Of a stretch of 40,183 bases of DNA, positions 275 to 38,900 are shown one piece after another. Numbering within the stretch: position 1 is the stretch's first letter; each line of letters starts with the position of its first letter. The position numbers and the translations under genes are program-made. This DNA comes from a virus: IMG/VR virus record IMGVR_UViG_3300006737_000066, positions 1 through 40,183 of that record, one strand, 5' to 3'. The notes under the pieces are model-generated. The model was not told the origin of the DNA, ran no database searches, and was given only the letters and a program-made list of their open reading frames with translations.

Positions 275-304
275 GGAGCAGTGTCGTTGAAGACACTGCG
301 CTCC
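275..304. repeat. Hairpin built on palindrome copy 1 (280-297)
   Basis: AGTGTC-GTTGAA-GACACT at 280-297 is copy 1 of the recurring 18-bp palindrome. Flanking GGAGC (275-279) and GCTCC (300-304) extend the stem past a short bulge. It sits between two leftward genes. The rightward reading is followed by TTTT; the leftward reading has no U-run, so it would be a weak leftward terminator. A half-copy (GAAGACACT) lies just beside it at 255-263. Confidence 0.75.
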
Positions 305-306
305 TT

Positions 307-966
307 TTAATCTTGCATCGTTTGTAATGGGTGCATTTGAGTTAAAACTCTACCTGCAATATCACATAACTCACGAATACTTCCGTCGGACTGAATTACA
401 TTTCCGTCGGCATCTATTCTAATTGTTGCACCTGCATTTCCGTTGATTGCTTTCATTGAAATGGTGATGTACGTTTCAGGGTCTTCCGATTGGTTTTCTT
501 CGCTTTCGGCTTCTTCTGTTTCTTCGCTTTCGGTTTCTTCAGATTCTCTTACTTCAGCTTCGCCACTTGTACAGAATTTGTTGAATGCTTCGATGTTCCT
601 CTTTGGGCTTTCGCCGTTTTCTTCAGCTTCATCACAAGCAGTTACAAATTCGTTTATCGCATTCTCATTAGCATCTACATTGTTAGCCGCTTTGATTAGC
701 TTGTAGCATACTGATTTCTTTCGTCCACCTGCGATTGATTGAAAGAATTCGCAAATGTCATTATAAGTTATTCCTGCATCATCCATTTGGTTTTTTGCGT
801 CTTCGCTGTTGTACCATTCTTTCGCTGTTCGCAATTCCTTGCCTAATTCCACCTGTAGTTCAATGGACTTTTTGTGCTGTCTTCCAAGTCTTCTAATCAC
901 TCCTGTGATTGTGCTTGGACTGAATCCTGTTACATTGTTATAAAAACTTCTTTCTTGTGTATTCAT
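307..966 (-). CDS. Hypothetical 219-aa protein with acidic linker, possible DUF3102-like N-terminal part
   Basis: I do not recognise a clear family. Residues about 15-95 are predicted helical and basic/amphipathic. The order 'ELGKELRTAKEW', then a short helix ending 'FFQSIAGGRKKSVCYKLIKAA', recalls phage DUF3102/replication-associated proteins that pair a long helix with a helix-turn-helix-like segment; this is weak. Residues about 137-165 are an extremely acidic E/S-rich linker. The C-terminal 50 residues look like a small beta domain. The start is ATG at 966, whose A is shared with the stop codon of an upstream 38-aa ORF (TAATG), supporting translational coupling. It heads the leftward block facing the rightward structural genes, where early or regulatory functions are often found. 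Confidence 0.75.
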   Translation of the reverse strand: MNTQERSFYNNVTGFSPSTITGVIRRLGRQHKKSIELQVELGKELRTAKEWYNSEDAKNQMDDAGITYNDICEFFQSIAGGRKKSVCYKLIKAANNVDANENAINEFVTACDEAEENGESPKRNIEAFNKFCTSGEAEVRESEETESEETEEAESEENQSEDPETYITISMKAINGNAGATIRIDADGNVIQSDGSIRELCDIAGRVLTQMHPLQTMQD

Positions 967-1082
967 TATATATTATTTATTTGGTTACTTATTAATACTT
1001 GGAAAACCTTGTCTTGAATTGTCTCAAATGACTGATTATCAGTCAGTTGCGTGTTCAATGTGTCGTTTTCTCGTCGTTTCAT
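966..1082 (-). CDS. 38-aa leader ORF coupled to the 219-aa gene
   Basis: An ATG at 1082 (leftward) opens a 38-codon frame, beginning M-K-R-R-E-N-D and ending Q-I-N-N-I, whose TAA overlaps the ATG of the next gene as TAATG. The same junction is used by confident gene pairs here (for example at 6499 and 7448), which supports real translation. A candidate promoter ends only a few bases before its ATG, so the message could be nearly leaderless. The reading frame also contains the palindrome at 1029-1045. It has no recognisable domain and could instead be a 5' leader of the downstream gene. Confidence 0.4.
   Translation of the reverse strand: MKRRENDTLNTQLTDNQSFETIQDKVFQVLISNQINNI
1029..1045. promoter_or_regulatory. 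Perfect inverted repeat, operator candidate
   Basis: TGACTGA-TTA-TCAGTCA is a perfect 7-bp inverted repeat with a 3-base centre, lying just downstream of the candidate leftward promoter and inside the 38-aa ORF. Its size suits a dimeric helix-turn-helix repressor. No second copy was seen, so operator function is an inference. Confidence 0.35.
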
Positions 1083-1086
1083 ATAG

Positions 1087-1116
1087 CTAATATAGTTCTT
1101 TTATACGGATTGACAA
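1087..1116 (-). promoter_or_regulatory. Candidate leftward promoter
   Basis: Read leftward, TTG (1116-1114) is followed after 19 bases by TATATTAG (1094-1087), one mismatch from the Bacteroidetes -7 box TAnnTTTG. The groEL promoter shows the same 19-base spacing. It would drive the 38-aa and 219-aa leftward genes. Its start site would fall at or next to the ATG at 1082. Confidence 0.4.
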
Positions 1117-1208
1117 TGGCTTTGTTGCATTTTCTTTCAATTCCCTCAATTTTGTTTATGCGATTGAAATGGGGTGCAGGGGTTAACGGACTCCTCTTTA
1201 TGTCCGTT

Positions 1209-1226
1209 AGTGTCTTTGAGGACACT
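1209..1226. repeat. 18-bp palindrome copy 2
   Basis: AGTGTC-TTTGAG-GACACT, intergenic in the divergent control region. It has the same arms and 6-base spacing as the other copies. Confidence 0.85.
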
Positions 1227-1345
1227 ATTTGAGGGAAGGTATTCGATATGGACGTTCACCTGGAAAACATCACGTTTATTCATCAATCTTCTGTAATGTA
1301 GTACAGGCAAGGGATACAGACCTTTGAGAACTAATCTCTATTCGT

Positions 1346-1375
1346 GGGGGGAGCAGGGGAGCAGGGGAGTAGGGG
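1346..1375 (+). other. Four-tract G-quadruplex motif
   Basis: Four runs of at least four G (1346-1351, 1356-1359, 1364-1367, 1372-1375) are separated by three 4-base loops (AGCA, AGCA, AGTA). This satisfies the canonical intramolecular G4 rule with G4 tracts, which is very rare in AT-rich DNA. It can also be read as a tandem 8-bp repeat. It lies in the non-coding divergent region. Confidence 0.85.
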
Positions 1376-1608
1376 AGCGAATAACAGCTACAGCAGGACA
1401 GCGCGAACGTCTACAGCCCACGTATATAGAGGAATGTAGACTCATATATCTACAGCTACAGGACAACCCCAAACAAATCGCCAAAAAATCACACCTGCAC
1501 CGATGAAAACATCACCCCCCCCATCGACGAACGAGGCGTTTCCGGACGAGCCCGGCGTGCGTGCCGCCCTATATAACCCAAAGACTACATACATCTAAAA
1601 AAAATTTG

Positions 1609-1616
1609 TACCTTTG
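1609..1616 (+). promoter_or_regulatory. TAnnTTTG promoter for the 67-aa gene
   Basis: TACCTTTG matches the Bacteroidetes -7 box. It lies 27 bases before the ATG at 1644. It overlaps an in-frame TTG at 1614, which argues against that upstream start. Confidence 0.6.
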
Positions 1617-1643
1617 ACAAATAAACCTTATATTAGCAGAACA

Positions 1644-1847
1644 ATGATGAAGACGTATCAAGACTTAATGAACAGTGAGTACACTATCAAGAATGGTAGA
1701 TTAATTAATAATGCACCACCACTCGAGATGGGTATTTCAAAAGCGGCAAGACTTCGTAGAGAGGTTCACCGTAGCAAGAAGATTGCAAAGATTGCTGATG
1801 GCATAGAGATGGCTGAAGCAAGACAGCAAATGAGAAAATTATTTTAG
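1644..1847 (+). CDS. Hypothetical 67-aa basic protein
   Basis: First rightward gene after the control region. I choose ATG 1644 rather than the in-frame TTG at 1614, because the latter lies inside the promoter -7 box and the transcript would begin after it. The protein starts M-M-K-T-Y-Q-D-L and has a basic helical C-terminal half (about residues 30-67) rich in K, R and A, ending in R-K-L-F. It has no recognised domain. A terminator-like hairpin follows at 1900, so it is probably a single-gene unit, perhaps early-expressed. Confidence 0.65.
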   Translation: MMKTYQDLMNSEYTIKNGRLINNAPPLEMGISKAARLRREVHRSKKIAKIADGIEMAEARQQMRKLF

Positions 1848-1899
1848 GTGTTAGTGTTTGATAAGTAGGGTGCACACACACCCGAAAATACCTAAGTTT

Positions 1900-1930
1900 A
1901 AAGAGGGCTCTCCTACAGTCCTCTTTTTTT
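1900..1930 (+). terminator. Intrinsic terminator after the 67-aa gene
   Basis: AAAGAGG (1900-1906) pairs with CCTCTTT (1920-1926) around a 13-base loop, and the T-run continues to 1930. It ends the upstream one-gene unit. Confidence 0.65.
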
Positions 1931-1966
1931 ATGCTCTAAATTTTATATTAAGTGATAAGATAATGT

Positions 1967-1974
1967 TAACTTTG
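1967..1974 (+). promoter_or_regulatory. TAnnTTTG box, possible second groEL promoter
   Basis: TAACTTTG about 200 bases upstream of groEL. It matches the -7 consensus, but with no gene nearby its role is uncertain. Confidence 0.35.
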
Positions 1975-2058
1975 TGTTGACTTTAAATAGCTAACTAATT
2001 GATACTCAATACTAAATGTCAAGATGTTAACTTTTTTTCTATACAGACAAGCGTTTAA

Positions 2059-2086
2059 ATAATAATAATAAAAGAGAGAGAGAGAG
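2059..2086. repeat. AAT and GA simple repeats
   Basis: Consecutive AAT units (about 2059-2070) are followed by a GA-dinucleotide run (about 2073-2086), immediately upstream of the groEL promoter. Such tracts can vary in length by slippage. Confidence 0.7.
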
Positions 2087-2119
2087 TATAGAGAAAAAAA
2101 TTTGACATTTGAGCACAGC

Positions 2120-2149
2120 TTGTTTTATTCTCTTTTATTTATATCTTTG
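2120..2149 (+). promoter_or_regulatory. groEL promoter (TTG-N19-TATCTTTG)
   Basis: TTG at 2120-2122, a 19-base spacer, then TATCTTTG at 2142-2149. Both elements and the spacing match the Bacteroidetes housekeeping promoter. It lies 20 bases before the groEL ATG. Confidence 0.7.
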
Positions 2150-2169
2150 TGTAAATTAAATCAAATACA

Positions 2170-3750
2170 ATGAATCAAGGATATTCACCAAAGGACTTAG
2201 AGTTCGGCACAGAGGGGAGAGACAAGCTCATCTCCGGAATCACAAAAATTTCTAAAGCAGTTAAGAGCACTCTCGGTCCGAGAGGTAATACTGTTCTTAT
2301 AGAATCCCCGGAGCATACTCACGGAATAACGGTAACGAAAGATGGAGTTACTGTAGCTAAGTCTATTAGTCTAATGGACCCCATCGAGAACCTTGCGGTT
2401 CGTATGGTAAAGGAAGCTGCTGACAGGACTGCGACATCGGCGGGTGATGGAACAACTACAGCTATAGTATTAACGGAAGCACTTGTTAAAGCAGGTACTA
2501 AGCGTATGAAAGATTCTAACAGGACGGAAGTTTTGCGTATGCTTGTAGAGAAAACGAAAGAGATAGTAAAGGACCTTAAGAAGCAGTCAAAGAAGGTAGA
2601 CTCTAAGACGCTAAAGGATGTGGCTATTATATCAGCGAACAACGATAAAGTTATCGGAGAGATAATCTCTTCTGTATATGAGAAGGTCGGTAAGGACGGT
2701 GTGGTTACTGTAGAAAGGTCACAGTCATCGGAGACATACTTCGAGTCTACCAATGGTATTAAAGTTGACCGTGGGTATATGTCTCCCTTGTTTGTCAATG
2801 ACCAAAAGAGAGACGAGTGTATACTTGATGACACTTATGTATTGGTATCAGATGCAGAGATAAGCAACATACTACAGGTGGAGAAAATATTGAAACCAAT
2901 TATTACAGGAGGCAAAAGACTATTGATTATTGCTCCTTGCTCCACGCAGGTTATAAATACCTTGGCGGCTAACGTAATGAAAAACAACTTGAAGGTGTGT
3001 ACTATACCACCTCCCAACTTCGGTTACAAGCAGCACGAGCTGATGCAGGATATTGCGCTTAGTGTTGGAGCAACTTATTTCTCTGAGAAGACAGGAGACG
3101 ACCTCAGCATAATGGAGTTTGAGGACTTGGGTCACTGTGCTAAGGTTATAGTTAATAGAGACTCTACTGTAATACTTAAGGATAGTGATGACAGTAACAG
3201 CGAGGAGATAAAGAAGAGGGTATCAGAACTTACCGATGCGCTCAGTATAACATCAAAGAAAGCGGATAAGGAATTTATACTTTCGCGAATCGCCTCCCTG
3301 ACGGGAGGGATTGGGGTTATTTACGTTGGCGGTAACACAGACCTTGAGCAGAAAGAATTGTATGACCGAGTAGATGATGCTGTGTGTGCAGTACGCTCAG
3401 CATTGGAAGAGGGAATACTTCCGGGTGGAGGGATTGCTTTATATAAACAAGCATTATCTCAAGATGACACTGTTGCGGGAATGATGTTAGCTGATTGTCT
3501 TAGTGAACCTCTTTGGCAAATTTGGAAAAACGCAAGTTTAAATAACAAAATGTTTTACAAAGTTAACGAGGGTAATTCAACCTATGGCTTAAACGTGAAG
3601 ACAGGAGATTGGGGAGATATGTACAAGATGGGTATCATTGACCCGCTGAAGGTAACCCGTAGTGCGTTACAGAATGCAGTCAGTGTAGCGGTTACTATTT
3701 TATCAACCGACGCTATAGTCACTATGGCAAGAGCATACGAGAAAGAATGA
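2170..3750 (+). CDS. groEL: Phage-encoded chaperonin GroEL (Cpn60)
   Basis: ATP-driven protein-folding chamber subunit. It aligns along its whole length with group I chaperonins: L-G-P-R-G-N-T-V near residues 35-42, T-K-D-G-V-T-V-A-K with the catalytic Asp at D58 (E. coli D52), A-G-D-G-T-T-T with D93 (E. coli D87), and R-V-D-D-A followed by A-L-E-E-G-I-L-P-G-G-G, where D403 corresponds to E. coli D398. The C-terminal equatorial part (G-I-I-D-P-L-K-V-T-R-S-A-L-Q-N) is intact. The apical domain occupies roughly residues 195-380. At 526 residues it is shorter than host GroEL (about 548); the Gly-Gly-Met tail is missing and the segment after G-G-G is shorter. A GroES-like gene follows almost directly, so the phage carries a matched pair, probably to fold its own large virion proteins. 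Catalytic residues are intact, so ATPase activity is expected. Confidence 0.96.
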   Translation: MNQGYSPKDLEFGTEGRDKLISGITKISKAVKSTLGPRGNTVLIESPEHTHGITVTKDGVTVAKSISLMDPIENLAVRMVKEAADRTATSAGDGTTTAIVLTEALVKAGTKRMKDSNRTEVLRMLVEKTKEIVKDLKKQSKKVDSKTLKDVAIISANNDKVIGEIISSVYEKVGKDGVVTVERSQSSETYFESTNGIKVDRGYMSPLFVNDQKRDECILDDTYVLVSDAEISNILQVEKILKPIITGGKRLLIIAPCSTQVINTLAANVMKNNLKVCTIPPPNFGYKQHELMQDIALSVGATYFSEKTGDDLSIMEFEDLGHCAKVIVNRDSTVILKDSDDSNSEEIKKRVSELTDALSITSKKADKEFILSRIASLTGGIGVIYVGGNTDLEQKELYDRVDDAVCAVRSALEEGILPGGGIALYKQALSQDDTVAGMMLADCLSEPLWQIWKNASLNNKMFYKVNEGNSTYGLNVKTGDWGDMYKMGIIDPLKVTRSALQNAVSVAVTILSTDAIVTMARAYEKE

Positions 3751-3905
3751 AAGAGTTAATGTTAATTGCTTTGGCAAAAAGATTCTCCAATGACGCTGAC
3801 TTGGGAAAAGAGATAAGAAAGATTGCAAACAAAATAGAGAAATATTATGAAACCGATAGGCAAGCATATAGTAGTGAGACTGATAGAGGAAGAAGTAAAA
3901 ACTGA
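3747..3905 (+). CDS. 52-aa ORF linking groEL and the groES-like gene
   Basis: An ATG at 3747 overlaps the groEL stop as ATGA and opens 52 codons (M-K-E-L-M-L-I-A-L-A-K-R-F and onward), ending 59 bases inside the groES-like gene. The ATGA junction is the same coupling used at the amidase/holin and terminase/portal junctions. The first 35 residues look like an amphipathic helix; the tail, which overlaps groES in another frame, is low complexity. It could be a real small coupled protein or simply a device that hands ribosomes to groES. No homology is recognised. Confidence 0.4.
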   Translation: MKELMLIALAKRFSNDADLGKEIRKIANKIEKYYETDRQAYSSETDRGRSKN

Positions 3906-4104
3906 TTCAGGACTTTTACTGTCAGCACAAGACGCAAGTGCATTTAGATATCAGATGGCTGATGTTGTAAAGCCGGGTACTGATGTAAGTGTTATTGACG
4001 AAGGTGATAGGATATATTTTGACAAGAGACAGTCTTATACCATAATGATTAATGGAGAGCAGTATACTGTTATTCAGGAGCGCGATGTTGTGGTAGTTCT
4101 GTAA
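3847..4104 (+). CDS. groES: Co-chaperonin GroES-like (Cpn10)
   Basis: Heptameric lid partner of GroEL. The 85 residues start K-P-I-G-K-H-I-V-V-R (compare R-P-L-H-D-R-V-I-V-K in bacterial GroES), then a mobile loop about residues 16-32 with the hydrophobic contact triplet L-L-L at 23-25, then D-E-G-D-R-I-Y-F at 51-58 (the family's V-G-D-x-V-x-F strand) and a C-terminal strand E-R-D-V-V-V-V-L. It is about 10 residues shorter than typical GroES (about 97), mainly where the roof beta-hairpin should be, so the dome opening may be wider, as in other short phage co-chaperonins. It follows groEL, with the 52-aa ORF bridging the gap. Confidence 0.85.
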   Translation: MKPIGKHIVVRLIEEEVKTDSGLLLSAQDASAFRYQMADVVKPGTDVSVIDEGDRIYFDKRQSYTIMINGEQYTVIQERDVVVVL

Positions 4105-4116
4105 AATTATTTCTAC

Positions 4117-4124
4117 TATCTTTG
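4117..4124 (+). promoter_or_regulatory. TAnnTTTG promoter for the EF-hand-like gene
   Basis: TATCTTTG lies 12 bases before the ATG at 4137 and 12 bases after the groES stop. It starts a separate unit after the chaperonins. Confidence 0.6.
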
Positions 4125-4136
4125 TAAAAAGAAACA

Positions 4137-4433
4137 ATGGCAAAAAGAAACGGAAACGGAAACGGCAAAGAAAACAGAAGCCCAAAAAGAAAAAATAAAT
4201 TAGCACGTAGAGATAGACCTCTACCATCAACATTACCTGCAGACCTTAAGCCTTACGACACAAACAATGATGGTGTACTTTCTCAAGCAGAGAGATTGGC
4301 AATGGCAAGAGCAAAGGCAAAAGAGAGAAGTAAGGAGGACTTAAAGCCGAAAAGAAAAGTACCTATGGATAGAAAAGGACTTATGGATAAAAGGAAAGGC
4401 TTAAATCCAACGGTAAAAACATCTTATCCCTAA
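4137..4433 (+). CDS. Small basic protein with a single EF-hand-type loop
   Basis: 98-aa protein, rich in K/R at both ends (an N-G repeat then K-R-K at residues 5-20; K/R-rich 58-90). The centre contains D-T-N-N-D-G-V-L-S-Q-A-E at residues 41-52, which fits the calcium-binding EF-hand/dockerin loop D-x-[DN]-x-[DN]-G-x-[ILV]-x-x-x-E at every ligand position and is followed by a helix as in EF-hands. The start is the ATG 12 bases after a TATCTTTG box. It is the first member of the basic-protein cluster; whether it binds calcium is an inference. It converges with the next, leftward gene. Confidence 0.75.
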   Translation: MAKRNGNGNGKENRSPKRKNKLARRDRPLPSTLPADLKPYDTNNDGVLSQAERLAMARAKAKERSKEDLKPKRKVPMDRKGLMDKRKGLNPTVKTSYP

Positions 4434-4440
4434 GAGGGAT
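4426..4440. terminator. Hairpin between convergent genes
   Basis: ATCCC-TAAGA-GGGAT, a 5-bp stem overlapping the stop codon of the rightward gene and just before the end of the leftward regulator gene. It could act in both directions, but there is no good T-run, so termination is uncertain. Confidence 0.3.
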
Positions 4441-4447
4441 TACATAA

Positions 4448-4876
4448 CTATTCGTGACGCTGCTGTCTTATAGACGCATTCATCTCTTTAATCATATTCC
4501 TGTATACCTTGTCTGAGTAGGATACATTCTTTTTAAACATAGGATTCTTTGAAGGAGAGGTCGGCATTGCTTCACCCTGTAACTTTTCATATAGAGACGT
4601 AAGCATCCTTTGGGATTTAAATGACAGTTGATATATTGCTTTCTTTTTACCGGCTCTCTTTCTGAACACCTCAATCCATCCATCACGTTTTAGTTTATCG
4701 AATCTGTTAACATTCCAAGATAGTAGTTCATCGAACTCTTTGAATCGGTCCTTTGAAAAAAATCTTTCTGTTCTAAGAAACAGAAGCATATCTAACTCCG
4801 CTTGTGTGATATTGTATTTTGCTTTTATGAAGTATCGTATCACTCTCCAATACTTTAGGTAGTCATCTAAAGCCAT
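4448..4876 (-). CDS. Winged-helix DNA-binding regulator, MarR-like
   Basis: 142-aa protein and the only leftward gene right of position 1100. Helices at about residues 22-38 and 41-50 are followed by L-L-S-W-N-V-N-R-F-D-K-L-K-R-D-G-W-I, the recognition-helix region, then a basic wing (R-K-R-A-G-K-K-K) and a strand (A-I-Y-Q-L-S), the usual order in MarR/PadR-type winged-helix proteins. The C-terminal third is helical and polar. The start is ATG 4876, 24 bases after a leftward TATCTTTG that forms an inverted repeat with the rightward promoter of the basic-protein operon. This arrangement suggests it regulates its own gene and the divergent cluster. Its exact family is unassigned. Confidence 0.75.
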   Translation of the reverse strand: MALDDYLKYWRVIRYFIKAKYNITQAELDMLLFLRTERFFSKDRFKEFDELLSWNVNRFDKLKRDGWIEVFRKRAGKKKAIYQLSFKSQRMLTSLYEKLQGEAMPTSPSKNPMFKKNVSYSDKVYRNMIKEMNASIRQQRHE

Positions 4877-4888
4877 AAATTAAATTCT

Positions 4889-4907
4889 TATCTTTGTATC
4901 AAAGATA
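4889..4907. promoter_or_regulatory. Palindromic divergent promoter pair
   Basis: TATCTTTG-TAT-CAAAGATA is a perfect inverted repeat made of two TAnnTTTG -7 boxes, one per strand: 4889-4896 rightward (ATG at 4913) and 4907-4900 leftward (ATG at 4876). The two start sites would be about 10 bases apart, so the polymerases should exclude each other. Confidence 0.65.
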
Positions 4908-4912
4908 TAAAA

Positions 4913-5128
4913 ATGGCTGACAAAAAAGAAAAGCTAAGCAAGAAAGAATTGGAGACCATTGCGTTCAGGGATTCCGTTACAAGGAGATTAAAGAAGCTTG
5001 ATGAAACTGATTCGGCTACTCGAAAAAAAGAGAGGAAAGCTTTACGAGAAGCAAATCGACAAAGGAGAAGAGCTAAAAGAAGAATTACTCTTCAAGGCTT
5101 AAAAAAGTTTAAAGGATTTAGTAGTTGA
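4913..5128 (+). CDS. Small basic helical protein, 71 aa
   Basis: Starts M-A-D-K-K-E-K-L-S-K-K and is almost entirely charged helix, with the arginine-rich run R-Q-R-R-R-A-K-R-R at about residues 49-57. It looks like a nucleic-acid-binding peptide; no family is recognised. It is the first gene of the rightward basic-protein operon, 17 bases after a TATCTTTG box, and ends one base before the next ATG (stop 5126-5128, ATG 5130), so the pair is very likely co-translated. Confidence 0.7.
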   Translation: MADKKEKLSKKELETIAFRDSVTRRLKKLDETDSATRKKERKALREANRQRRRAKRRITLQGLKKFKGFSS

Positions 5129-5129
5129 T

Positions 5130-5507
5130 ATGGCAAAGAAAGATGCTTGCTATAGAAAGATTATGCGACGATACAAGAAGTGGTCGGCTCGAGCAGCTCA
5201 GGCTACAGCTAAGTGTCGTAAGAAAAAAGGCATTGTTCGCAAAACCAAAGCGGGCAGAAACCTAAAGAGATGGGGTAAGGAGAAATGGATTGATACTCGA
5301 ACAGGTAAATCTTGTGGTACCGGTAAGAGAAGTGAATACTGTAGACCATCAATAAGAGTGTCGTCAAAGACACCCGTTACTAAGTCAGAAATGTCTAAGT
5401 CAACTTTAAGAAAAAAGCAGGCTGAAAAAAAACGAATAGGAAAACAAGGAGCGGGAGGCAAAAAGGTTTCCGCTGTTAGAAGAAATCGCTATGGCAGAAA
5501 AAAGTAG
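5130..5507 (+). CDS. Basic protein with DUF5872-like domain
   Basis: 125 aa. Residues about 45-85 show the pattern L-K-R-W-x-K-E-K-W-I-D-T-R-T-G-K-S-C-G, then Y-C-R-P-S-I-R-V-S-S-K-T-P-V-T, which I recognise as the DUF5872 signature known from phages and algal giant viruses; its function is unknown. The N-terminus (K-K-D-A-C-Y-R-K-I-M-R-R-Y) is another basic helix with cysteines, and the tail is K/R/G-rich. Conserved Cys and Trp residues hint at a metal- or nucleic-acid-binding mini-domain. Palindrome copy 3 (5357-5374) lies inside the domain, encoding V-S-S-K-T-P. The last 17 bases overlap the next gene. Confidence 0.8.
   Translation: MAKKDACYRKIMRRYKKWSARAAQATAKCRKKKGIVRKTKAGRNLKRWGKEKWIDTRTGKSCGTGKRSEYCRPSIRVSSKTPVTKSEMSKSTLRKKQAEKKRIGKQGAGGKKVSAVRRNRYGRKK
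5357..5374. repeat. 18-bp palindrome copy 3, inside a gene
   Basis: AGTGTC-GTCAAA-GACACC within the DUF5872-like gene. The palindrome begins at the third codon position. Confidence 0.85.
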
Positions 5508-5781
5508 AATGAAATGCAATAGGGTTACCGCATCGGATAGACCCGGCAAGAAGAAGATGGTTAAAGCCTGTGAGGGTGGCAAAGAGAAGTTGATTCACTT
5601 TGGTGCTAAGGGTTATGGTCATAACTATTCTGCTGCTGCTCGTAAATCATTCAAGGCACGCCACAAGTGTGGCACTGCAAAGTCTAAACTAACTGCACGG
5701 TATTGGTCGTGTAAGAATTTATGGGCAGGCAAAGGTGGAAGCACGAAGTCATCACCAAAAAATCGTCAAGGAAAATATTAG
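5491..5781 (+). CDS. Small basic Cys-containing protein of a phage/giant-virus family
   Basis: 96 aa with a strongly patterned sequence: M-K-C-N-R-V near the start, R-P-G-K-K-K-M-V-K-A-C, then H-F-G-A-K-G-Y-G-H-N-Y-S, R-K-S-F-K-A-R-H-K-C, and A-R-Y-W-S-C-K-N-L-W. The H-F-G, R-K-S-F-x-A-R-H-x-C and R-Y-W-x-C blocks recur in small proteins of marine phages and algal giant viruses; I believe a Pfam DUF covers them but am not certain of its number. Paired Cys/His suggest zinc binding. It overlaps the preceding gene by 17 bases, so it is translationally coupled in the same operon. Confidence 0.8.
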   Translation: MAEKSRMKCNRVTASDRPGKKKMVKACEGGKEKLIHFGAKGYGHNYSAAARKSFKARHKCGTAKSKLTARYWSCKNLWAGKGGSTKSSPKNRQGKY

Positions 5782-5789
5782 TATATTTG
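5782..5789 (+). promoter_or_regulatory. TAnnTTTG promoter for the tagged basic proteins
   Basis: TATATTTG directly after the stop of the preceding gene and 16 bases before the ATG at 5806. It could restart transcription for the tagged-protein run. Confidence 0.55.
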
Positions 5790-5805
5790 TAAAAAGAATT
5801 TAACA

Positions 5806-6267
5806 ATGGCATATAAAAGAGATTTAGCAAACCCCTTAGCGGTATCTATAAACCCGGGAGATAAGCCTAAGAAAAAAAAGGCAAAAAGAAAAGTTTCAAA
5901 TAACTATAGAGGTAAAGGCGATATAAAACGCCTAAAGAAAGTTACCCGAAAAGATGGAACAACCGTAACAAAATATAAAGGAACGGGGAAAGCAAAAGTA
6001 AAATCAAGAGAGGTTCGAAATGACGAGGGCACGCTTTTAAAGTATAAAAGGAAAACTAAGACGAAAAAACCTTATAGAGAAACTACTACCAAGGTAAAGT
6101 ACAACCCTATGAAGAAAAGCGGAGCTGTTGTAACTAAGAAATCAAAACAACTTACAGGTCCATACAAAGGGAAAAAATCTAAAAGCAAGTTTGAGAGCAC
6201 TATTCCTTTTGGAGCAAAACAGTCAGTTAGAAAAGATATAGCTCGAAATCGCAAGAAAAAATCTTAA
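5806..6267 (+). CDS. Tagged basic protein 1 (RDLANPLA)
   Basis: 153 aa and among the most lysine-rich proteins here. The N-terminus is M-A-Y-K-R-D-L-A-N-P-L-A-V-S, the first of five copies of the shared tag. The tag is followed by a poly-basic patch (K-P-K-K-K-K-A-K-R-K) and then strand-like repeats of the type K-D-G-T-T-V-T-K-Y and N-D-E-G-T-L-L-K-Y-K-R-K, which recur in the other tagged proteins. There is no enzymatic motif. A role in binding or condensing DNA, or as an internal virion protein delivered by the tag, is an inference from composition and from the conserved tag on variable bodies. Confidence 0.8.
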   Translation: MAYKRDLANPLAVSINPGDKPKKKKAKRKVSNNYRGKGDIKRLKKVTRKDGTTVTKYKGTGKAKVKSREVRNDEGTLLKYKRKTKTKKPYRETTTKVKYNPMKKSGAVVTKKSKQLTGPYKGKKSKSKFESTIPFGAKQSVRKDIARNRKKKS

Positions 6268-6280
6268 TAAACAATAAATT

Positions 6281-6696: not shown

Positions 6697-6698
6697 CT

Positions 6699-6806: not shown

Positions 6807-6809
6807 CCA

Positions 6810-7124: not shown

Positions 7125-7127
7125 CCA

Positions 7128-14227: not shown

Positions 14228-16451
14228 TTTATACAAGGTATTAAAAGATTACATACCTAAATCCGTACTTACCAATAAAAATAAAAATAAAAGTTGGGAG
14301 TATGGATATGACGAGAAGTATGACCTTGTAGTAATATCTAAAACAGGACAGATAGGAGATGTTGTAGATATTCAAGGTTTGCAAGTAGGGCTACCCAAAG
14401 CTCCTAAAGAGTGTCGTCAAAGACACTTAAAAAAAACAGAACAGTATTGGGAGAGGGAAGATATACCTAAACAGCTTTCAAGAATTAAATCTATATTCCA
14501 ATGGAATGAGATGACATCAACCTTCAAGGACAAGTGGGTGGATTATATTGAGTCAGAATTCGACAGGAGGGAATATGGCTATTGGTTTATGAATAATGGT
14601 GTGCCCACTTATATTACAGGAGCTCACTATATGTATCTTCAATGGACGAGTATAGATGTTGGATACCCTGATTTTAGAGAAGCAAACAGAATTTTGTTTC
14701 TCTATTGGGAGGCTTGTAAAGCAGACAAAAGAAGCTTTGGTATGACATACCTGAAGATTAGGCGTTCAGGATTTTCTTTTATGAGTTCATCAGAATGCGT
14801 TAACATTGCTACTTTGGCTCGCGACTCTCGAATAGGAATATTATCAAAGACGGGTAGTGATGCTAAGAAGATGTTTACAGATAAGGTTGTTCCTATATCA
14901 CAAAGGCTTCCGTTCTTTTTCAAACCCATACAGGACGGTATGGACAAGCCAAAGACTGAATTAGCATTTAGAATACCCGCGTCTAAGATTACAAAAAAGA
15001 ATATGCACGAGGTTGCTAATAATGATATGGATGGTCTCGACACCACAATAGATTGGAAGAACACAGATGACAACTCCTATGACGGTGAGAAACTCCTAAT
15101 GTTAGCGCACGATGAAAGTGGCAAGTGGTTAAAACCAAATAATATACAAAATAATTGGCGTGTTACTAAAACCTGTTTAAGGTTAGGTAGTAAAATTATT
15201 GGCAAGTGTATGATGGGCTCAACCGTTAACTCAAAAAGCAAAGGAGGGGGAGCGTTCAAATCTTTATATGAAGACTCTAATCTCAATACTCGAAATGCTA
15301 ACGGTCAAACCAAAAGCGGATTGTACAGTCTGTTTGTTCCAATGGAATGGAATATGGAGGGGTTTATTGATGTGTATGGAATGCCCGTATTTAGAAAACC
15401 TCCTATCCCCGTGTTAGGTGTTGATGGTGAGATGATTAAAAACGGGGCTATTGATTATTGGGAGGCGGAAGTGGACTCTCTAAAAAATGACCCTGATGCT
15501 TTGAATGAGTTTTACAGACAGTTTCCTCGAACAGAGTCTCACGCATTTAGAGATGAAAGTAATCAGTCTTTGTTTAACCTTACCAAGATATACCAACAGA
15601 TTGATTATAATGATGCGATGATAAAAGAGCACTATATTACTCGAGGTTCTTTTCATTGGAAGAACGGAGTTAAAGATACTGAGGTTGTATGGAGTCCGGA
15701 CAAGCGAGGTAGATTTAATGTCTCTTGGACACCAAAGAAGGGGATGAATAACAAGGTTGAAACTCGCGGCGGTATAAAGTATCCGGGCAATGAACACATA
15801 GGGGCGTTCGGATGTGACTCTTATGATATATCCGGAACGGTTGGAGGAGGAGGTTCTAACGGAGCTCTTCACGGTCTTACTAAGTTTAGTATGGATGAAG
15901 CACCAAGTAATGAGTTTTTTTTGGAGTACGTGGCTCGACCTCAAACTGCAGAGATATTTTTTGAAGAAGTATTAATGGCTTGTGTGTTTTATGGAATGCC
16001 CATACTTATAGAGAACAATAAGCCGAGGCTTTTATATCATTTTAAAAACAGAGGGTATAGAGGGTTCTGTATGAATAGACCCGACAAACAGTATACCAAG
16101 CTTTCAAAAGCGGAGAGAGAACTTGGGGGTATACCTAACACAAGCGAAGATGTCAAACAGGCTCACGCAGCAGCAATAGAGTCTTATATTGAAAAGCATA
16201 TAGGTATGGATACGGAAGGCACTTTTAGGGATAGCGACGTTATGGGTACTATGCCTTTTGAACGAACCCTTGAAGATTGGGCGCGATTCGATATATCTAA
16301 TAGAACAAAATTTGATGCGTCTATAAGCTCAGGTCTTGCCATAATGGCGTGTCAAAAACATTTATATACCCCGCAGAAAAAAGAGTCAAAAATAAAGATT
16401 AACTTTGCAAGGTATACTAACAAAGGAACATTAAGTGAAATAATCAGATGA
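14205..16451 (+). CDS. terL: Terminase large subunit (packaging ATPase and nuclease)
   Basis: Motor that drives DNA into the procapsid and cuts it. TTG at 14205 is chosen: the next upstream in-frame stop is at 14136 with only a CTG between, and no in-frame ATG occurs until well into the protein. It overlaps the upstream gene by 23 bases. Landmarks: a Walker-A-like R-R-S-G-F-S-F at 186-192, Walker B L-L-M-L-A-H-D-E with D303/E304, the nuclease Asp in A-F-G-C-D-S at D538, an L-I-E-N-N element and the C-terminal F-D-A-S acidic residue. At 748 residues it is at the long end, as in crAss-like phages. Palindrome copy 4 lies at codons about 69-75. Overlaps the portal gene as ATGA. Confidence 0.92.
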   Translation: MPNEGQNSLYKVLKDYIPKSVLTNKNKNKSWEYGYDEKYDLVVISKTGQIGDVVDIQGLQVGLPKAPKECRQRHLKKTEQYWEREDIPKQLSRIKSIFQWNEMTSTFKDKWVDYIESEFDRREYGYWFMNNGVPTYITGAHYMYLQWTSIDVGYPDFREANRILFLYWEACKADKRSFGMTYLKIRRSGFSFMSSSECVNIATLARDSRIGILSKTGSDAKKMFTDKVVPISQRLPFFFKPIQDGMDKPKTELAFRIPASKITKKNMHEVANNDMDGLDTTIDWKNTDDNSYDGEKLLMLAHDESGKWLKPNNIQNNWRVTKTCLRLGSKIIGKCMMGSTVNSKSKGGGAFKSLYEDSNLNTRNANGQTKSGLYSLFVPMEWNMEGFIDVYGMPVFRKPPIPVLGVDGEMIKNGAIDYWEAEVDSLKNDPDALNEFYRQFPRTESHAFRDESNQSLFNLTKIYQQIDYNDAMIKEHYITRGSFHWKNGVKDTEVVWSPDKRGRFNVSWTPKKGMNNKVETRGGIKYPGNEHIGAFGCDSYDISGTVGGGGSNGALHGLTKFSMDEAPSNEFFLEYVARPQTAEIFFEEVLMACVFYGMPILIENNKPRLLYHFKNRGYRGFCMNRPDKQYTKLSKAERELGGIPNTSEDVKQAHAAAIESYIEKHIGMDTEGTFRDSDVMGTMPFERTLEDWARFDISNRTKFDASISSGLAIMACQKHLYTPQKKESKIKINFARYTNKGTLSEIIR
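14410..14427. repeat. 18-bp palindrome copy 4, inside terL
   Basis: AGTGTC-GTCAAA-GACACT, identical to copy 3 except the last base, in the N-terminal part of the terminase gene. It begins at the second codon position and encodes C-R-Q-R-H, so the reading phase differs from copy 3. Confidence 0.85.
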
Positions 16452-21546: not shown

Positions 21547-21564
21547 GAGTTGATACAACATAAG

Positions 21565-21594
21565 GGAGTGTCGTTAGCGACACTCCTTTTTTTT
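21565..21594 (+). terminator. Strong terminator after the capsid gene, built on palindrome copy 5
   Basis: GGAGTGTCG-TTAG-CGACACTCC followed by eight T. The core (21567-21584) is AGTGTC-GTTAGC-GACACT, copy 5 of the 18-bp palindrome. It has the best stem and T-run of all copies. Confidence 0.92.
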
Positions 21595-28782: not shown

Positions 28783-29610
28783 ATGGAAGGACTAACAGGA
28801 AACTACACACTTACTTACAGCGAATCATCTAAAGGGTTCCCGTCTTTTTACTCCTACTACCCTGACTATATGATTGGTATGAATAGATATCTGTATTCAT
28901 TTAAGGGTGGTAATTTGTGGAGGCATAATACCAATGACGAACGCAATACTTTTTACGAGCAGACAGCAGTGTCGTCGACAATGACAAGTGTCTTCAACGA
29001 CACTCCGTTACAAAATAAAATATTCAAGACTCTTAATCTTGAATCTGATGACGCTTGGAAAGCCACGCTCACAAGCGATATACAAAACACGGGATTCATA
29101 GAGGCTGAGTATTTTGAAAAGAAGGAAGGTGATTGGTTTGCTTTTGTAAGAAATGCAGGAGCTTCACCTGCAGATGTAGGGGAGTACGCTTTACGTTCAT
29201 TGAATGGTATAGGTTCAAGTTCAAGTACAGATGTAGCTGTTCCTGCTGCTGTTGAGATATCCTTTGCACTCACTACAAACATTGGAAGTATTGTAAGTAT
29301 TGGTGACAACCTATATTACATAGCGTCACCTGTAGCCCCAAATGCAACTCCTGTTTTTTGTGGAAAAATAATAGACATCGAAGTAGACCTACCTGAAGGA
29401 ATAAACAAAATAATTGTCGATACATCAGTGGCAGGAGGGAGTTTGCCTCCGGGAGCTACAGACTATTTCTTATACATAAAGAATCAAGTAGCAGAATCAC
29501 ACGGAATACTTGGACATTACTGCGAGTTTACTTTAGAACTGCCAAACACTGTAACAACTAAATCAGAGTTATTTGCTGTAGAGTCTGAAGTGATGAAAAG
29601 TTTCCCTTAA
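28783..29610 (+). CDS. Tail protein, split C-terminal part of the nozzle system
   Basis: 275 aa. Starts M-E-G-L-T-G-N-Y-T-L-T-Y-S-E-S-S-K-G-F-P-S-F and continues Y-S-Y-Y-P-D-Y-M-I-G-M-N-R-Y, F-K-G-G-N-L-W-R-H-N. I recognise this as a domain of large tail proteins in related phages, here a free-standing gene. The C-terminal two thirds are strand-rich. Palindrome copy 6 and a partial copy sit at codons about 62-74. Gap to the preceding gene is six bases. Confidence 0.7.
   Translation: MEGLTGNYTLTYSESSKGFPSFYSYYPDYMIGMNRYLYSFKGGNLWRHNTNDERNTFYEQTAVSSTMTSVFNDTPLQNKIFKTLNLESDDAWKATLTSDIQNTGFIEAEYFEKKEGDWFAFVRNAGASPADVGEYALRSLNGIGSSSSTDVAVPAAVEISFALTTNIGSIVSIGDNLYYIASPVAPNATPVFCGKIIDIEVDLPEGINKIIVDTSVAGGSLPPGATDYFLYIKNQVAESHGILGHYCEFTLELPNTVTTKSELFAVESEVMKSFP
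28987..29004. repeat. 18-bp palindrome copy 6, with an adjacent half-copy
   Basis: AGTGTC-TTCAAC-GACACT in the tail gene, beginning at the first codon position and encoding S-V-F-N-D-T. A degenerate copy with a perfect left arm and centre (AGTGTC-GTCGAC) lies at 28968-28979, 19 bases upstream. Confidence 0.85.
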
Positions 29611-32952: not shown

Positions 32953-32966
32953 ACAAATTAAAAATA

Positions 32967-35900
32967 ATGAACGATAAACTTCAACAACTTTACGACCTTT
33001 ATTTAGACCGAGGTCTTATTACGGAAGCTTCATCTTTTGAAATGTTTTCCAATGCCGACCCTAATCAAGTAAGAGCATTGTTTGAACTTGGTAAGGATAG
33101 AGGCTTATTTAAAACTTCGTCTTTAGACGATTTTTCATCAGCTTGGGGAGGCACTCAAGGGGTAGATATTAACTCAGAAAATAGTGGTTGGGTAAAAAAA
33201 AAAGGCGATACTCGCTCCGTTGGTCAAATTATTGGAGATTACCAAGAAAGTTTGGCATCAGGCTCGGAAGATGGTTCATCGGAATCAGCAGAGAAACCTA
33301 AGCTTACTGAAGAGCAATCTCAGTTTTTAGGAGGTCTTGCCGATGGTGCTTTTGCAGGCGAAGGGGGATTTGAGCCTCTGCAGCCTGTAGAGAATACTGT
33401 TATAGATAAGATTAAAGACCCTGACAGGTTTAAGCAAATTGAATTTGGAGGGGAGAGGATAGACCTTGAGGCTTCAGACCCTAAAGTTAGAGCAGCAAAC
33501 ATTAAGAAATACAGAGACAGTCTTGCGAGTGGTATAGACTATAGAAGAACCCAAAAGAAAGATTTACTTGACCAACTTCAGTCAAACAAAACTGATGAGG
33601 AAAAAAAGAAAATAGCGGACCAATTAAGATTAATCGACGACCTTAATCTTCAAGCGAAAGGAATCATAAACTTAGCGAACGCACCTACCGTTGAGGATTT
33701 TCTTGCAGGGCAGGAAACCGTGGCTAATGTGGATAGAGAGCTTATCTCGTCTTTAGTCAGTGAAGGAAAGAATAAAGCCGCAAAGCTTTTATATAATCAA
33801 CAGTTAAAAGCTATTCAAGACCAACAAAAGAAAAAGGCAGGATTTGTGGAGGTCAATGGTGAGTTTTATGACCCTGAGGATTTACCTACAGGATATGGTT
33901 TTAATACAGCCTTAGAAACTATAAACTACACGGCTCTTGCGGGCAGAGAAGAAGAAGGGGTAGTGGGTTCTTTAAGGGCTAAGTTCGGGCAGTTTGGTTT
34001 TAGATTTGAGGAATCAGGCGCAGGGGACAACGTAACAATCTACTCTCCTAATGGAAACAGCACGGAGATAAGTCTTGATAATTGGACAGATGCGGGAGAC
34101 GCTGAGTCAGGAAGAGATATAAAAAGATTCCTGATGACAGAGTATATTGACACAGAACTAAGCGACGAACAACGGGTTGCACAAGCAATGCTTTCTCCCG
34201 GAGATGCAAGTCAGGTGGGTATGGGTACAGAGTTTGATTACGAGGACTATTACACCGAAGCAGGATACGACACTCGTAGGGCGAGTATGATAGAAGAAGA
34301 CGCATTAGCTCTTAAAGAATTAGAAACTTCGATAGAATCCAACACGGCTGAATTTGAGCAAAAAGAAAAAGAGCTTAACGCTATAGGTGATGCTTTAAAT
34401 AAAGACGTTTTAAACACTGAGCTAAGAGCTCAATATGAAGCAAAGAGACTTGAGGTTCAAGGGTTACAGGCGAAAATTGTACAAGAACACATTCTTGGAA
34501 GCAAAGCTATAACGAACTACGAAAACGTACTTAATGAAATGAACCGCTCATTAGGTTACAGGGCTTTGAATTATGTTGAGTGGGATATCAGTAATCTGCC
34601 TGAGCTTTTTGTAGGAGAGTTTGCTCGAGGGGGCGCGGAGACAGTTGCAGGGTATATTGATATGGCAGGAGATGTAGGGAACTTATACAACTATGTTCAC
34701 GAAGGAATTACAGGCGATAAATTATTTACCGATGCTGAATTAAAAGCGTGGAAGAAAAACACTAAGGCTCCTGTAAAAATAGCAGGGGAGCTTGCTTCAG
34801 GAGTGATGTTCGGTGGCTTAGACCAATTCAGCTCAAGTGCTGCTTTCGCCGGATTGACTCCTTTAGACGGCTCAGTAGCCATAAAGGACGGTAAGGTAGA
34901 GCTTGGAGGTGATATGGTTAGTAACAAAACCGTAGCGAAGTTCAATGAACAGGGATGGTTTGCTCAGGGTCTTACGGGATTATTGCGCTCATCTCCCGCG
35001 ATGATGACGGGACCATTTAGAATAGCTTCCTTTTACGCAATGGGAGCGGAGCATATAGATGACCAATTTAATAATAATCCTGAGCTTGCAAATCTAAGCG
35101 AGGCTGAAAAGCTAAAACTAAAAATACCATTAGGGCTGACAGTGGCTGTGCTCGAAGAAGTTGGTATGAGAAATATGTTAGGGAACTCGTCTTTTGTTTC
35201 GAGTATTGTAGGTAAATCTATAGCTCAATTTACAAAAAGACCTGTTGCGCAACAGACGGCAAGAACATTCAGGGAAACAGTTATAAAGAACATAGGGAAT
35301 TCTGTTGGAGGGAAAATTGCAAAGACAGCTATACTCGCCGGTTCGTCAGGAGCCGCTGAATATGAAACAGGATTTTTACAAGAGTTGGCAGATGTATATG
35401 GTAAAGAGCTGTACGACCTCGCTAACAAAACAGACTCTTTTAAAAATGTAATAACTCTTCAGGATAAAGACGGTAGCTTTAGTTTGGATAACGCTGCTAA
35501 TATGGAACTTCTTACACAGGCTAATCACGCAGGATTAGCGGAGATGGTAGGTGGTATTGTTATGGGTATGCCAAGTGCTGTTACTCAAGCTTCACAGTCC
35601 TTTGAATTTAACGAGATTTCGGACGGTCACTTTGAGCTGTTTAAGCAGGTGTCAGAGATTGAGAATGTGGAGGACTTCGTGGTACAGCAGAGAGCAGCCT
35701 TAGACGCCGCTGTTGGTTTGGTTAACAATCCGAGTACCGGAGAACTATTAACTCAAGAGGAGGCGGATACTCAGATGAGGAACTATGAAATATTAATAGG
35801 ACTCAAGAACACTATACCAAGTGAGTTTGCTCCTGAGTATGGCAAGAAGATATTATACCTTGCCCTACAAAAGAAAGGACTACAAGAGGCAATAGATAAA

Positions 35901-38900
35901 CTTGATAAGGGCGCATCTAAAGAGCAACAGCGACAGTTAAAAATAATCGAAGAAGATATAGCAGAGCTGAGCAGGGCTGCCGAGAAAGAGCTTGCTGAAA
36001 GTACAAGAGAGTATGAAGCGCAGAAAAAATCAGGGGAAACGGATTTGAATTTCAAAGCTTGGAGATTCCAAGGGATGATGAAGGAATCAGTTAGAGAGGA
36101 TACTAAAAAAGAGGCAGAGAAAGAGGCAGAGATGGAAGACCTTTCGGGACTTACAGAGGAGGAGGCAGAGGCTCGATTGTTGGCTCAGCAATTAGGAGAT
36201 ACTACTACGCCAACAGAGACGACAACCGCAAAAGATACTACTACGCCAACAGAGACGACAACCGCAGAAGATACTACTACGCCAACAGAACAAACCGTTA
36301 GCGTGGATGAGCAAGTGTCGCCAACGACACCCGTTCAATCAACTCAAGAAATGTTGGAGGAACAGTGGAACCAAGAACTTCAGGCGAACAAAGACTCTCA
36401 ATTAAAGGCGGCTGAACAACAACTCAAAGAGGAGAAAGGTCCGGGAAGAAGAAACTTTTTAATAGGCAGAAGAAGAGCCCCTGTAATTACGCAGGAAGAA
36501 ATACTTCAGCGAGCAAAAGAAAACTTATACAAACTAAACACATCCCTACAAGAACAAGAAGTGTCGCCGACGACACCGACTCAAGAGGTTTCCCTTGTAG
36601 TAAATCCTACAAGGTCACAAGAAAAGCAGGGTAATGTTTATACCATAGAGCAAGACGGTCAAGCGGTTGGTGAGGTTATGTTTACTCAAAACAGTAAAGG
36701 AGAGATTGTAGTTCAGGACGTAGATGTTTTACCCGGCAATCAAAAACAAGGCATAGCGACCAAGGCTTATCAGGCTATTAATAATATAGTTGGAGATAGA
36801 AAAGTTGTGTCAAGCACTATGTTCGTTGAGGAGGGTGGTGTTAAGCCGGGAGAGAAACTTTGGGAGAGCTTGGTTAGAAATAACTTAGCAAGAAAAACCG
36901 ATACAGGTTTTGAAATGATTAAGCAAACTACCGATGAAGGTCAGCAGTCTTCACGTAAGCAGGATAAAGACTCTAAAATTCAAAAACGTCTAAACAAAGT
37001 AATACAAAAATATAAGAAAGCCCTACAAGAAGCAACTACTGTAAAAGACAAGGCTCAAGCAATACAGCAATATAAGAATAACAAATATGTAGCAGAGCAA
37101 AAAGGAGCTACTATCTCTAAGGAAGATGCCGCTATTTTTGAGCAGGCAGAGCAGGAATTAAATGAGCAGGGTATTGAAATTAAACCACTTTTAGGGACTA
37201 TCTTGCTTGAAGGTTCTATTATAGAGGTTGACGACACAAGAACAACCAAGGAAGCCAAAGACCTTGATACTGATTTAACGGTCAGGGAAATTTCTAACGT
37301 ATCAGTACCTGCAATTATAAAAGACGGTAAGCAAATTCAAAGAGCAAAAGTAGATGTTACAATCCGTCCTAAAACAACAGCAGAGTTAGAGGCAGGTAAA
37401 GACCCGCAGTTTAGAACTAAGCGGGCGCAAAATGAGGACTATATTATATTTGACAAAGTACCGCCTAAAGAAGTATTGTCGTCTATACTTCGCTCATTAA
37501 AATCAAGGCTTAGGGCTGAAAATATAGATTTCAATGATACTGTTGTCGATGTCTTTGAAGACTACGTCAAAGGCAATGAGGTAAATATAAATGCAGAAAA
37601 CTATCCTCTTCAGCTACAAGAAGCTTTAGAAGGTGATGATATGACGTATGGCGAGATAGCCAATATGCTACGAATTACAGGTGTATACGAAACAAATGCA
37701 GCAGCCCTAAAAGGAATTAGAGAGATAGGTACAAAAGCAGGAGTTGATATGATGCGTCAAGTTCAAGAAGAGGTGTCTCAAGATACTGAAGCAGATGTTC
37801 AAGATGTAGTTGAAAAGATGAATGAGATGGAGTCGGGTAATGTAAGTACCAACTTAGATACTACGGCTGAGGGCGTCACTATAAATACTCAAGAGCTTAA
37901 CGAGAGAACAGACCGAGAGCTTCCAACGATTACTAACCTACAGATAATAGATGGTATCCCTACTATCTTTACTATATCCGACCAACTAAGAACAGGAGAT
38001 ATTGTGAATCCTCAAACAGGAAATACAATAGACAATCTTCGAGGTGGTCTTGGATTTACAGGCACACAAGGAAATGAGAATGCGGCGTGGGCAAACACCA
38101 CTGAAAAAGAGGCAGCCGATATTTTTAATAAAGCTGTTAAGACATACGAACAAAACAAAGAAGTGTTTGAGGAGTGGTGGAAAGCAAACCCTGAGTTTGC
38201 AGGACACATTCCAATGTCTGTAGTTAAGATGGGTGAGGGCTCTATACTTTCTAACGAGGCTACGTTTAGAGTTCTTAAGGACAACCTTACAAAGATTCCT
38301 TTAAAGAACAGAAGGAATGCTGTAAAGCTTTTGAAACAATCTATCAAAGATAAAATTAAAACAAGAGAGAGGTCAATCAAAACAGGACTAAGCGAGAAGG
38401 GTGAGAAGCTAAAACCTCTTACAATAAAAAATTATCAGAAAGAGGTAACGGGACATAAAGAAACGCTAAAGACTTTAGCTAAACTAAATCCAAAAACTAT
38501 AGATGATGTTGTAAGTATTGATTTCATTCAAACATTATCTCTTCCTGCAAGAAGAGTGTTGTTAGAACAAATAACTTTTGGTCAACCAAATCGAGCGGGA
38601 GAATCTAAAGCTCCGTCGAGGTCAGACAAGGTTGTGCCTTCAGCATTGATAGAGGGTATGACAAAAGAAGCCTTGGAGCTCGTGCATCTTGGTCCTATAA
38701 CAGACCTTATTGTTGAACCTCAGCTTAAAGATGTTCCACAGCGCAATATAATTGCGCTACAAGCAATAGAGATAGGTAAGTTTAATCCACAAACAAATGA
38801 ACTTGTGGAGACCACATTAGAGGAAGCCGTTATAGATACTCAGCATCCTAACTACTCTGTAGGTACAAAGGGAAAAACAATAGGTATTGTGGAGAACCCC

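Follow-up and report, generated by a model that had tools for sequence, protein, structure and literature searches.

In cluster A mycobacteriophages such as L5 and TipsytheTRex, 13-bp asymmetric sites termed stoperators are bound by a monomer of the repressor (PMC9283540). The KorB protein of plasmid RK2 recognizes a 16-bp operator and acts as a long-range silencer, being a cytidine triphosphate (CTP)-dependent clamp of the ParB family that works with KorA (PMC11790492); according to a title cited in that paper, the plasmid has 12 KorB operators. Several hammerhead ribozymes of prophages flank genes and have been suggested to process long transcripts (PMC3088659). Here we analyze a viral DNA of 40,183 nucleotides (IMG/VR record IMGVR_UViG_3300006737_000066, positions 1 to 40,183; hereafter the window), in which a palindrome with the arms GTGTC-N6-GACAC is dispersed inside and outside genes. 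We call the window a fragment of a crAss-like phage because its muzzle domain matches crAss_MUZ_C in Pfam. The palindromes are probably operators of a global regulator made by the phage itself, the product of the gene at 307-966, and would form a stoperator-like network that silences or blocks transcription.

The phases of transcription are known for two cultured crAss-like phages (PMC10136315). The early genes of crAss001 include a transcriptional regulator, and those of phi14:2 are read by a virion RNA polymerase, so the polymerase relevant to the window may be the phage's own. No mention of an operator, repressor or palindrome was found in the available part of this review. The palindromic repeats described in PMC12118408 lie at invertible promoters of the host and are not phage sites. 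In the accessible parts of the open-access literature on crAss-like phages and phage hammerheads, no description of such a system, or of a palindrome paired with a hammerhead, was found.

Palindrome copies in the window and in related phages

All eight copies listed by the first-pass annotation are present as exact GTGTC-N6-GACAC (Table 1), where 0.02 would be expected from the arm frequencies. A set of 200 simulated windows with the same dinucleotide make-up held 0.01 palindromes on average and 1 at most. The codon phases and peptides given for the genic copies were also correct, and 300 synonymous-codon shuffles of the 34 plus-strand genes yielded a mean of 0.13 and a maximum of 2 palindromes, against the five in-gene copies seen. 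Allowing mismatches, as had been proposed, brought the window search to chance level (46 sites versus 40 expected with up to three mismatches, 12 versus 9 with up to two), and the signal in the window is carried by exact copies only. The additional half-copies pointed out earlier proved weak: AGTGTC occurs 12 times versus 5.8 expected, with eight of the 12 lying within palindromes, and GACACT 13 times versus 11.6, while the half-copy at 255-263 is part of stem I of a hammerhead ribozyme and its loop. The copies starting at 14410, 21567, 28987 and 36314 are spaced by 7157, 7420 and 7327 bp, possibly a coincidence of gene layout.

The exact motif was found in 12 of 30 related records, with 1 to 14 copies each, and was absent from 18; six of the 30 were covered in part (G012, G014, G018, G026, G027 and G029), the sequences of G003, G013 and G021 were read in part, and the reversed-pattern control was positive in one record. 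The expectation that related phages carry the sites above chance frequency was confirmed in long records (53.7-64.9 kb) picked from 73 loci of the protein described below, all 16 of which hold 9-18 copies, with none of the reversed pattern. The sites are strict. Across 72 records, 442 exact palindromes were counted, of which 396 have the usual core; sites with this core and one mismatch number 13 (0.125 with control arms), and those with two mismatches seven (4.6 with control arms).

The sites of one record change as a set between phages. In the nearest annotated relative, MW202828.1 (W01; 60,850 bp; 78.7% identity in the terminase and 68.8% in the capsid), the 14 copies share one identical 16-bp sequence; according to its annotation, seven are intergenic, six of them about 3-10 nt past a stop codon, and seven are genic. 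Record G006 (L133-L135), one of the 18 without the exact motif, carries 12 copies with the variant arms GTCTC-N6-GAGAC, and L235 has three copies with GTATC-N6-GATAC arms in the stretch examined. A de novo palindrome search of the palindrome-free relatives brought out no comparable family except that of G006. A scan of IMG/VR with a stricter form, AGTGTCGTYRACGACACT, was tried and set aside: it returned 12 stretches, one in a 179-kb contig, and we estimate that about that many may be due to chance. Two of the 12 (L089 and L092) are the record G024.

The first-pass annotation had also raised the possibility of a small inserting element like the Rickettsia palindromic elements. The dispersal of copies inside and outside genes would suit such an element, and the terminase of G003 is five residues short exactly at the site. 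Against it, the terminase copy aligns without gaps to 14 of 18 orthologues (residues are missing in G003, G019 and G022, and elemoE has extra residues), the muzzle copy to 24 of 25, and the copy at 5357 to all three, so that orthologues lacking the palindrome mostly show no gap there; these three genic copies therefore arose by substitution. No longer repeat unit was seen in the flanks inspected. The comparison covers three of the five genic copies, the two in the giant open reading frame (ORF) having one poorly aligned orthologue, and it leaves insertion with next to no credibility. The alignments further show that protein motifs by themselves do not account for the genic copies: the muzzle peptide SVFN is widely kept where the palindrome is absent. 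In three of 19 aligned terminase sequences, the window included, the palindrome stands at the same codons.

The candidate binding protein and its relation to the sites

Among 26 records compared, the gene at 307-966 is the only early gene confined to palindrome-type records, with homologues in G005, G010, G020, G024, W01 and G006. A profile search with its product recovered the same seven records and no others. With the presence of the nearby GroEL gene taken as a proxy for the candidate locus, 13 of the 26 records are informative, the other 13 being treated as fragments: seven have both the protein and the palindrome (G006 with its GTCTC arms) and six have neither. A separate protein-based search returned 73 loci, 71 of them with the palindrome; the exceptions are L235, with its GTATC arms, and L236, a fragment at a contig end. 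A copy ends 193-307 bp upstream of the gene match in 56 of the 73 loci and a copy lies within 60 bp after the match in 46. Among 122 candidate stretches from bacterial and archaeal genomes, one (L237) holds a partial relative of the protein; its contig is labelled as an Aliivibrio metagenome-assembled genome (MAG) and may be a misbinned phage contig.

Three other early or regulatory genes were considered as the binder and rejected. A conserved gene of 142 amino acids (4448-4876, minus strand) occurs in records with and without the palindrome and is therefore not the binder; it runs opposite to the late genes, its counterpart in W01 is labelled a repressor, and it matches only phrog_17028, to which no function is assigned. 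The gene at 1-206 has a homologue in W01 that also matches G022, a record with neither the palindrome nor the candidate protein, and homologues of the neighbouring gamma-glutamyl cyclotransferase-like gene are likewise found in G022. This last, AIG2-like early gene lies near the gene that follows the ribozyme (W01 47708-48925; L107 7846-8925).

The predicted helix-turn-helix of 68 members of the protein family was compared with the sites in the same record, 12 of the 73 loci having been dropped as duplicates or short fragments. In 63 of the 68 proteins the predicted helix-turn-helix contains [WY]QK, and all of these occur with GTGTC sites whose majority base 6 is T, C or A (A in L215). The five proteins without [WY]QK all come with altered sites, namely the window, W01 and G024 (G at base 6), G006 (C at arm base 3) and L235 (A at arm base 3). 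The predicted recognition helix thus appears to co-vary with the site. From the near-exact sites, their set-wise change, their co-occurrence with one phage gene and this co-variation, we strongly infer that the 307-966 protein binds the palindrome, which gives good support to the binding part of the operator or silencer role first proposed. Dispersed exact sites would also fit a recognition enzyme, that is, packaging, replication or DNA-modification sites read by some other host or phage factor, but their presence follows one phage gene and their variants follow its predicted recognition helix, which makes another factor very unlikely.

The candidate protein has no match in PHROGs, only one sub-threshold match in Pfam (E 0.061), and a single match in a sequence search of the PDB (E 0.37). 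Searched against PHROGs and Pfam, 59 family members gave scattered weak matches in one or two members only. AlphaFold2 models reached a mean predicted local distance difference test score (pLDDT) of 82.5 for the window protein (first model) and 87.9 for a typical relative (second model). The predicted layout is a helical domain, an acidic disordered linker and a C-terminal strand-and-helix domain; the last is strand-strand-strand-helix in the first model and two long strands with a bridge in the second. The models point to a helix-turn-helix in the helical domain. A search of a viral structure library gave four homologues (E 4.9e-14 to 2.4e-10) and then nothing significant.

These models bear on another explanation, that the palindromes are centromere-like (parS-like) or condensation sites, serving to hold, segregate or compact phage genomes by way of a ParB-type protein that has no nucleotide-binding domain and that spreads or bridges between sites. 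Strict 16-bp palindromes would suit parS-like sites, and the first model has the C-terminal topology described for ParB and SopB (PMC5016525). VIA-align with the first model ranked Spo0J-parS first (Z 5.6, root-mean-square deviation 5.5, 99 residues), SopB third (Z 4.4) and P1 ParB thirteenth (Z 3.7). Z values of this size from VIA-align are common by chance, and 5.6 was the best obtained; the second, more confident model gave no ParB entry among the 50 matches listed, the best (Z 4.3) being unrelated. For the N-terminal nucleotide-binding ParB domain, the 59 members had no Pfam match at E 0.01, and the layout has a single helical domain. ParA (PF13614) was above the cut-off in none of 23 records, some of them partial, with one sub-threshold match in a giant ORF and positive controls in 14 of 14. 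The sites also follow gene gaps genome-wide and are not gathered at one locus. A partition or condensation role is accordingly a rather improbable one.

Gene context of the sites and hammerhead ribozymes

The position of the sites was counted in 75 records with simple ORF calls, by which 92% of the sequence is coding. L164, L168 and L228 were left out as the same records as G010, G020 and G005, and L182, L188, L189, L192, L206, L211 and L225 as near-duplicates. Of 454 sites, 271 fall in intergenic sequence, which makes up about 8% of the total. Same-strand intergenic sites with both neighbours number 245; 171 lie within 20 nt past a stop codon, and for 126 the next start follows within 40 nt. 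In gaps longer than 100 nt (n = 110), 85 sites are closer to the stop and 25 to the next start. Read along transcription, the core is TTCAAA in 189 sites and TTTGAA in 67, with TTCAAA in the majority in 42 records, TTTGAA in 10 and a tie in 12. Flank pairing exceeds all shuffles at four of six positions for intergenic copies, terminators included, and for genic copies no pairing beyond shuffles was found.

In these crAss-like phages, the spaces between early genes often contain type III hammerhead ribozymes. At the Rfam gathering score (48.5) none was matched in the window, and the one at 225-279 emerged in a sensitive search. One hammerhead exceeded the gathering score in six slices of G005, G010 and G020 (in G010) and one in nine loci (L174), while a looser limit gave 12 matches in five loci with E up to 0.001. 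Most hammerheads tested against Rfam score just under the gathering score, so default annotation misses them. A purpose-built finder gave 87 matches, up to four per record, and none in the reversed sequence. Among these, 58 start within 20 nt after a palindrome and two are in palindrome-free records; 27 are farther away or have no palindrome upstream, and at least one of the 27 looks false. When the core alone was searched, with no pairing demanded, 87 cores lay within 60 nt downstream of the 442 palindromes, versus 1.9 expected, and 104 lay elsewhere. The palindrome-near cores mostly show the features of type III hammerheads: stem II pairs at four of four positions in 63 (nine types) and at three of four in 23, stems I and III are present in 83, and GUC or GUA precedes the cut in 80. 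In the window, the palindrome stem reaches bases that adjoin and are partly shared with stem III of the ribozyme, and the two may therefore compete.

These results raise the question whether the palindrome works mainly in RNA. It would then be a stem-loop located at, or close to, the 3' ends of mRNAs, which it would protect or mature, and might be bound by the phage protein in its RNA form. Several observations are in keeping with this. Copy 5 of the window is a terminator-like stem; the palindrome lies just 3' of the capsid gene in 17 of 80 fetched relatives; hammerhead cores follow the palindromes far beyond expectation; and the intergenic copies cluster after stop codons, prefer one sense orientation and pair in their flanks. 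By eye, a terminator-like hairpin is found 3' of the capsid gene in most of 83 sequences viewed; L020, L029, L031 and L066 have GTCTC arms there, and the stem sequence varies widely among relatives, some with a partial form such as GTGTCTTAGGGCAC.

Other observations speak against a mainly RNA role. There are 396 exact copies and 13 with one mismatch (the 13 counted without regard to strand), and because the arms are near-invariant, no sign of compensating stem change appears within GTGTC records. None of the 13 looks like G-U drift kept on both sides. The genic copies, 40% of the sites, lack the flank pairing; L209, L214, L215, L216 and L230 keep the arms with the core symmetry broken; and the altered sites track the predicted helix-turn-helix. 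A role mainly in RNA is thus unlikely, if less so than a partition role. The hairpin suggestion of the first-pass annotation has partial support, from the terminator stem at copy 5 and from the many copies that stand directly before a hammerhead; the way in which the arms and cores are conserved speaks against it.

Features of the window are collected in Table 1. The terminase, portal, virion structural (capsid-position) and muzzle genes are on the plus strand between about 14 and 30 kb (PHROGs and Pfam matches), and the minus strand of bases 1-966 encodes two early genes. GroEL and GroES genes are common to records with and without the palindrome. The giant ORF (32967-40183) exceeds 2405 amino acids and is open at the window end, its counterpart in W01 having 3859; it contains a weak acetyltransferase-like stretch, is without a PHROG match, and its position suggests a virion-borne protein. 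Farther relatives of the window phage are the Flavobacterium elemo phages and Cellulophaga phages. The window covers 40 kb, versus 60.9 kb in the nearest full relative.

Table 1. Coordinates of the palindrome copies and associated features in the window
Feature	Position	Strand	Remarks
Early gene after the ribozyme	1-206	minus	cut by the window end; homologues in palindrome-bearing G005, G010, G020, G024, W01
Type III hammerhead ribozyme	225-279	minus	directly after palindrome copy 1 in the transcription sense; 43.4 bits, E 1.3e-7
Palindrome copy 1	280-297		flanked by the candidate gene (307-966, minus) and, across the adjoining hammerhead ribozyme, by the early gene at 1-206
Candidate binding protein	307-966	minus	219 amino acids; first early gene; unannotated; predicted helix-turn-helix
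Palindrome copy 2	1209-1226		divergent region, 243 bp upstream of the candidate gene start
GroEL/GroES pair	2170-4104		phage-borne; PHROGs/Pfam
Palindrome copy 3	5357-5374		in ORF 5130-5507 (DUF5872), starts at codon position 3; same site in G005
Palindrome copy 4	14410-14427		in the terminase large subunit gene, starts at codon position 2; same site in G004, G005
Palindrome copy 5	21567-21584		stem centre of a terminator-like hairpin with T-run (~21562-21594), 3' of the major capsid gene
Palindrome copy 6	28987-29004		in the crAss muzzle C-terminal-domain gene 28783-29610, codon position 1; same site in G001
Palindrome copy 7	36314-36331		in the giant ORF 32967-40183, codon position 3
Palindrome copy 8	36560-36577		in the giant ORF 32967-40183, codon position 3

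A proposed dispersed operator network and its comparison with known systems

The operator reading starts from what is seen directly in the sequences: the sites, how strictly they are kept, that they occur and vary together with the protein, and that ribozymes adjoin some of them. We infer beyond this that the protein is dimeric and that its binding blocks transcription. In the mechanism proposed, the dimeric product of the first early-operon gene (307-966, minus strand) would occupy the palindrome at about 4 to 18 near-identical sites across early and late genes; one of these would usually lie upstream of its own gene and another often just past it. The bound protein would mainly block or silence elongating RNA polymerase, with feedback on its own operon, damping early transcription and insulating genes; silencing at a distance, as with KorB, is the alternative to a block of elongation. 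Elongation block or silencing is favoured over simple promoter control, given that the majority of sites are internal to transcription units, being past stops or in genes. Long early transcripts would be cleaved by the ribozymes into pieces of about gene size, and where a ribozyme follows directly, the palindrome stem-loop would cap the newly made 3' end. The palindrome may then be a dual element, a DNA operator of a regulator of a new family and at the same time the 3'-end stem-loop of a hammerhead-cut message, which sets where transcripts stop and are cut; this extension is tentative and rather less likely to hold than to fail.

Several points weigh against the operator reading. Co-variation is confounded with descent, the five off-type proteins being some of the most divergent. 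G024 has four copies only in 59 kb, and seven of the 13 fragments without GroEL carry palindromes with no candidate gene in view. As many as 183 of the 454 sites are genic, and the 3'-side placement and sense bias fit an RNA role too. TAnnTTTG, a Bacteroidetes promoter motif, is mostly 140-200 bp away downstream of the upstream copy where it is found, and several loci, the window included, lack the exact motif; at such a distance between the upstream copy and the putative early promoter, simple repression of that promoter does not suggest itself. Foldseek with the first model found nothing below E 2.4 in the PDB, and the ParB likeness from VIA-align did not recur with the second.

As operators of the 307-966 protein, the palindromes would form a dispersed-operator system beyond mycobacteriophages and plasmids, one in which a DNA site is linked with processing by ribozymes. 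The analysis supplies a specific candidate protein together with exact sites, natural variants of specificity and neighbouring ribozymes, and each of these can be tested in vitro. The protein-site pairs are a natural set for reading helix-turn-helix specificity, and the adjacency of ribozymes suggests a genome-wide means to stop and cut viral messages.

KorB also works with the ParA-like IncC, whereas ParA was above the cut-off in none of the 23 records here and no ParB domain was detected. The window resembles the KorB system in the 16-bp operator of a DNA-binding protein and in its putative silencing (PMC11790492). As in P1 ParB and SopB, a helix-turn-helix domain is predicted to be joined by a flexible linker to a C-terminal strand-strand-strand-helix domain in the first model (PMC5016525). 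Unlike in these proteins, no matching N-terminal domain and no partner ATPase was found, and the fold likeness appears in one of two models.

The L5-type stoperators share with the palindromes their many near-identical sites across a phage genome, a location in short intergenic spaces (271 of 454 here, the other 183 being genic) and a phage protein with a helix-turn-helix, here a predicted one (PMC9283540). Stoperator orientation follows transcription (PMC9283540), whereas the palindromes show no more than a partial bias of this kind (the 189 versus 67 sites and 42 versus 10 records, with 12 tied, given above). The site differs in being a 16-bp palindrome and not a 13-bp asymmetric sequence. 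Stoperators belong to phages with immunity repressors (PMC9283540), whereas no PF00589 integrase was found here in 23 records, some of them partial, other integrase types and episomal lysogeny not having been searched. Like the hammerheads of prophages (PMC3088659), the ribozymes flank phage genes; unlike them, they stand directly after a palindrome that resembles a protein site, and in crAss-like phages. Dispersed phage operators are of a known kind; the new features here are the family to which the protein belongs, a site that is palindromic and the coupling to ribozymes.

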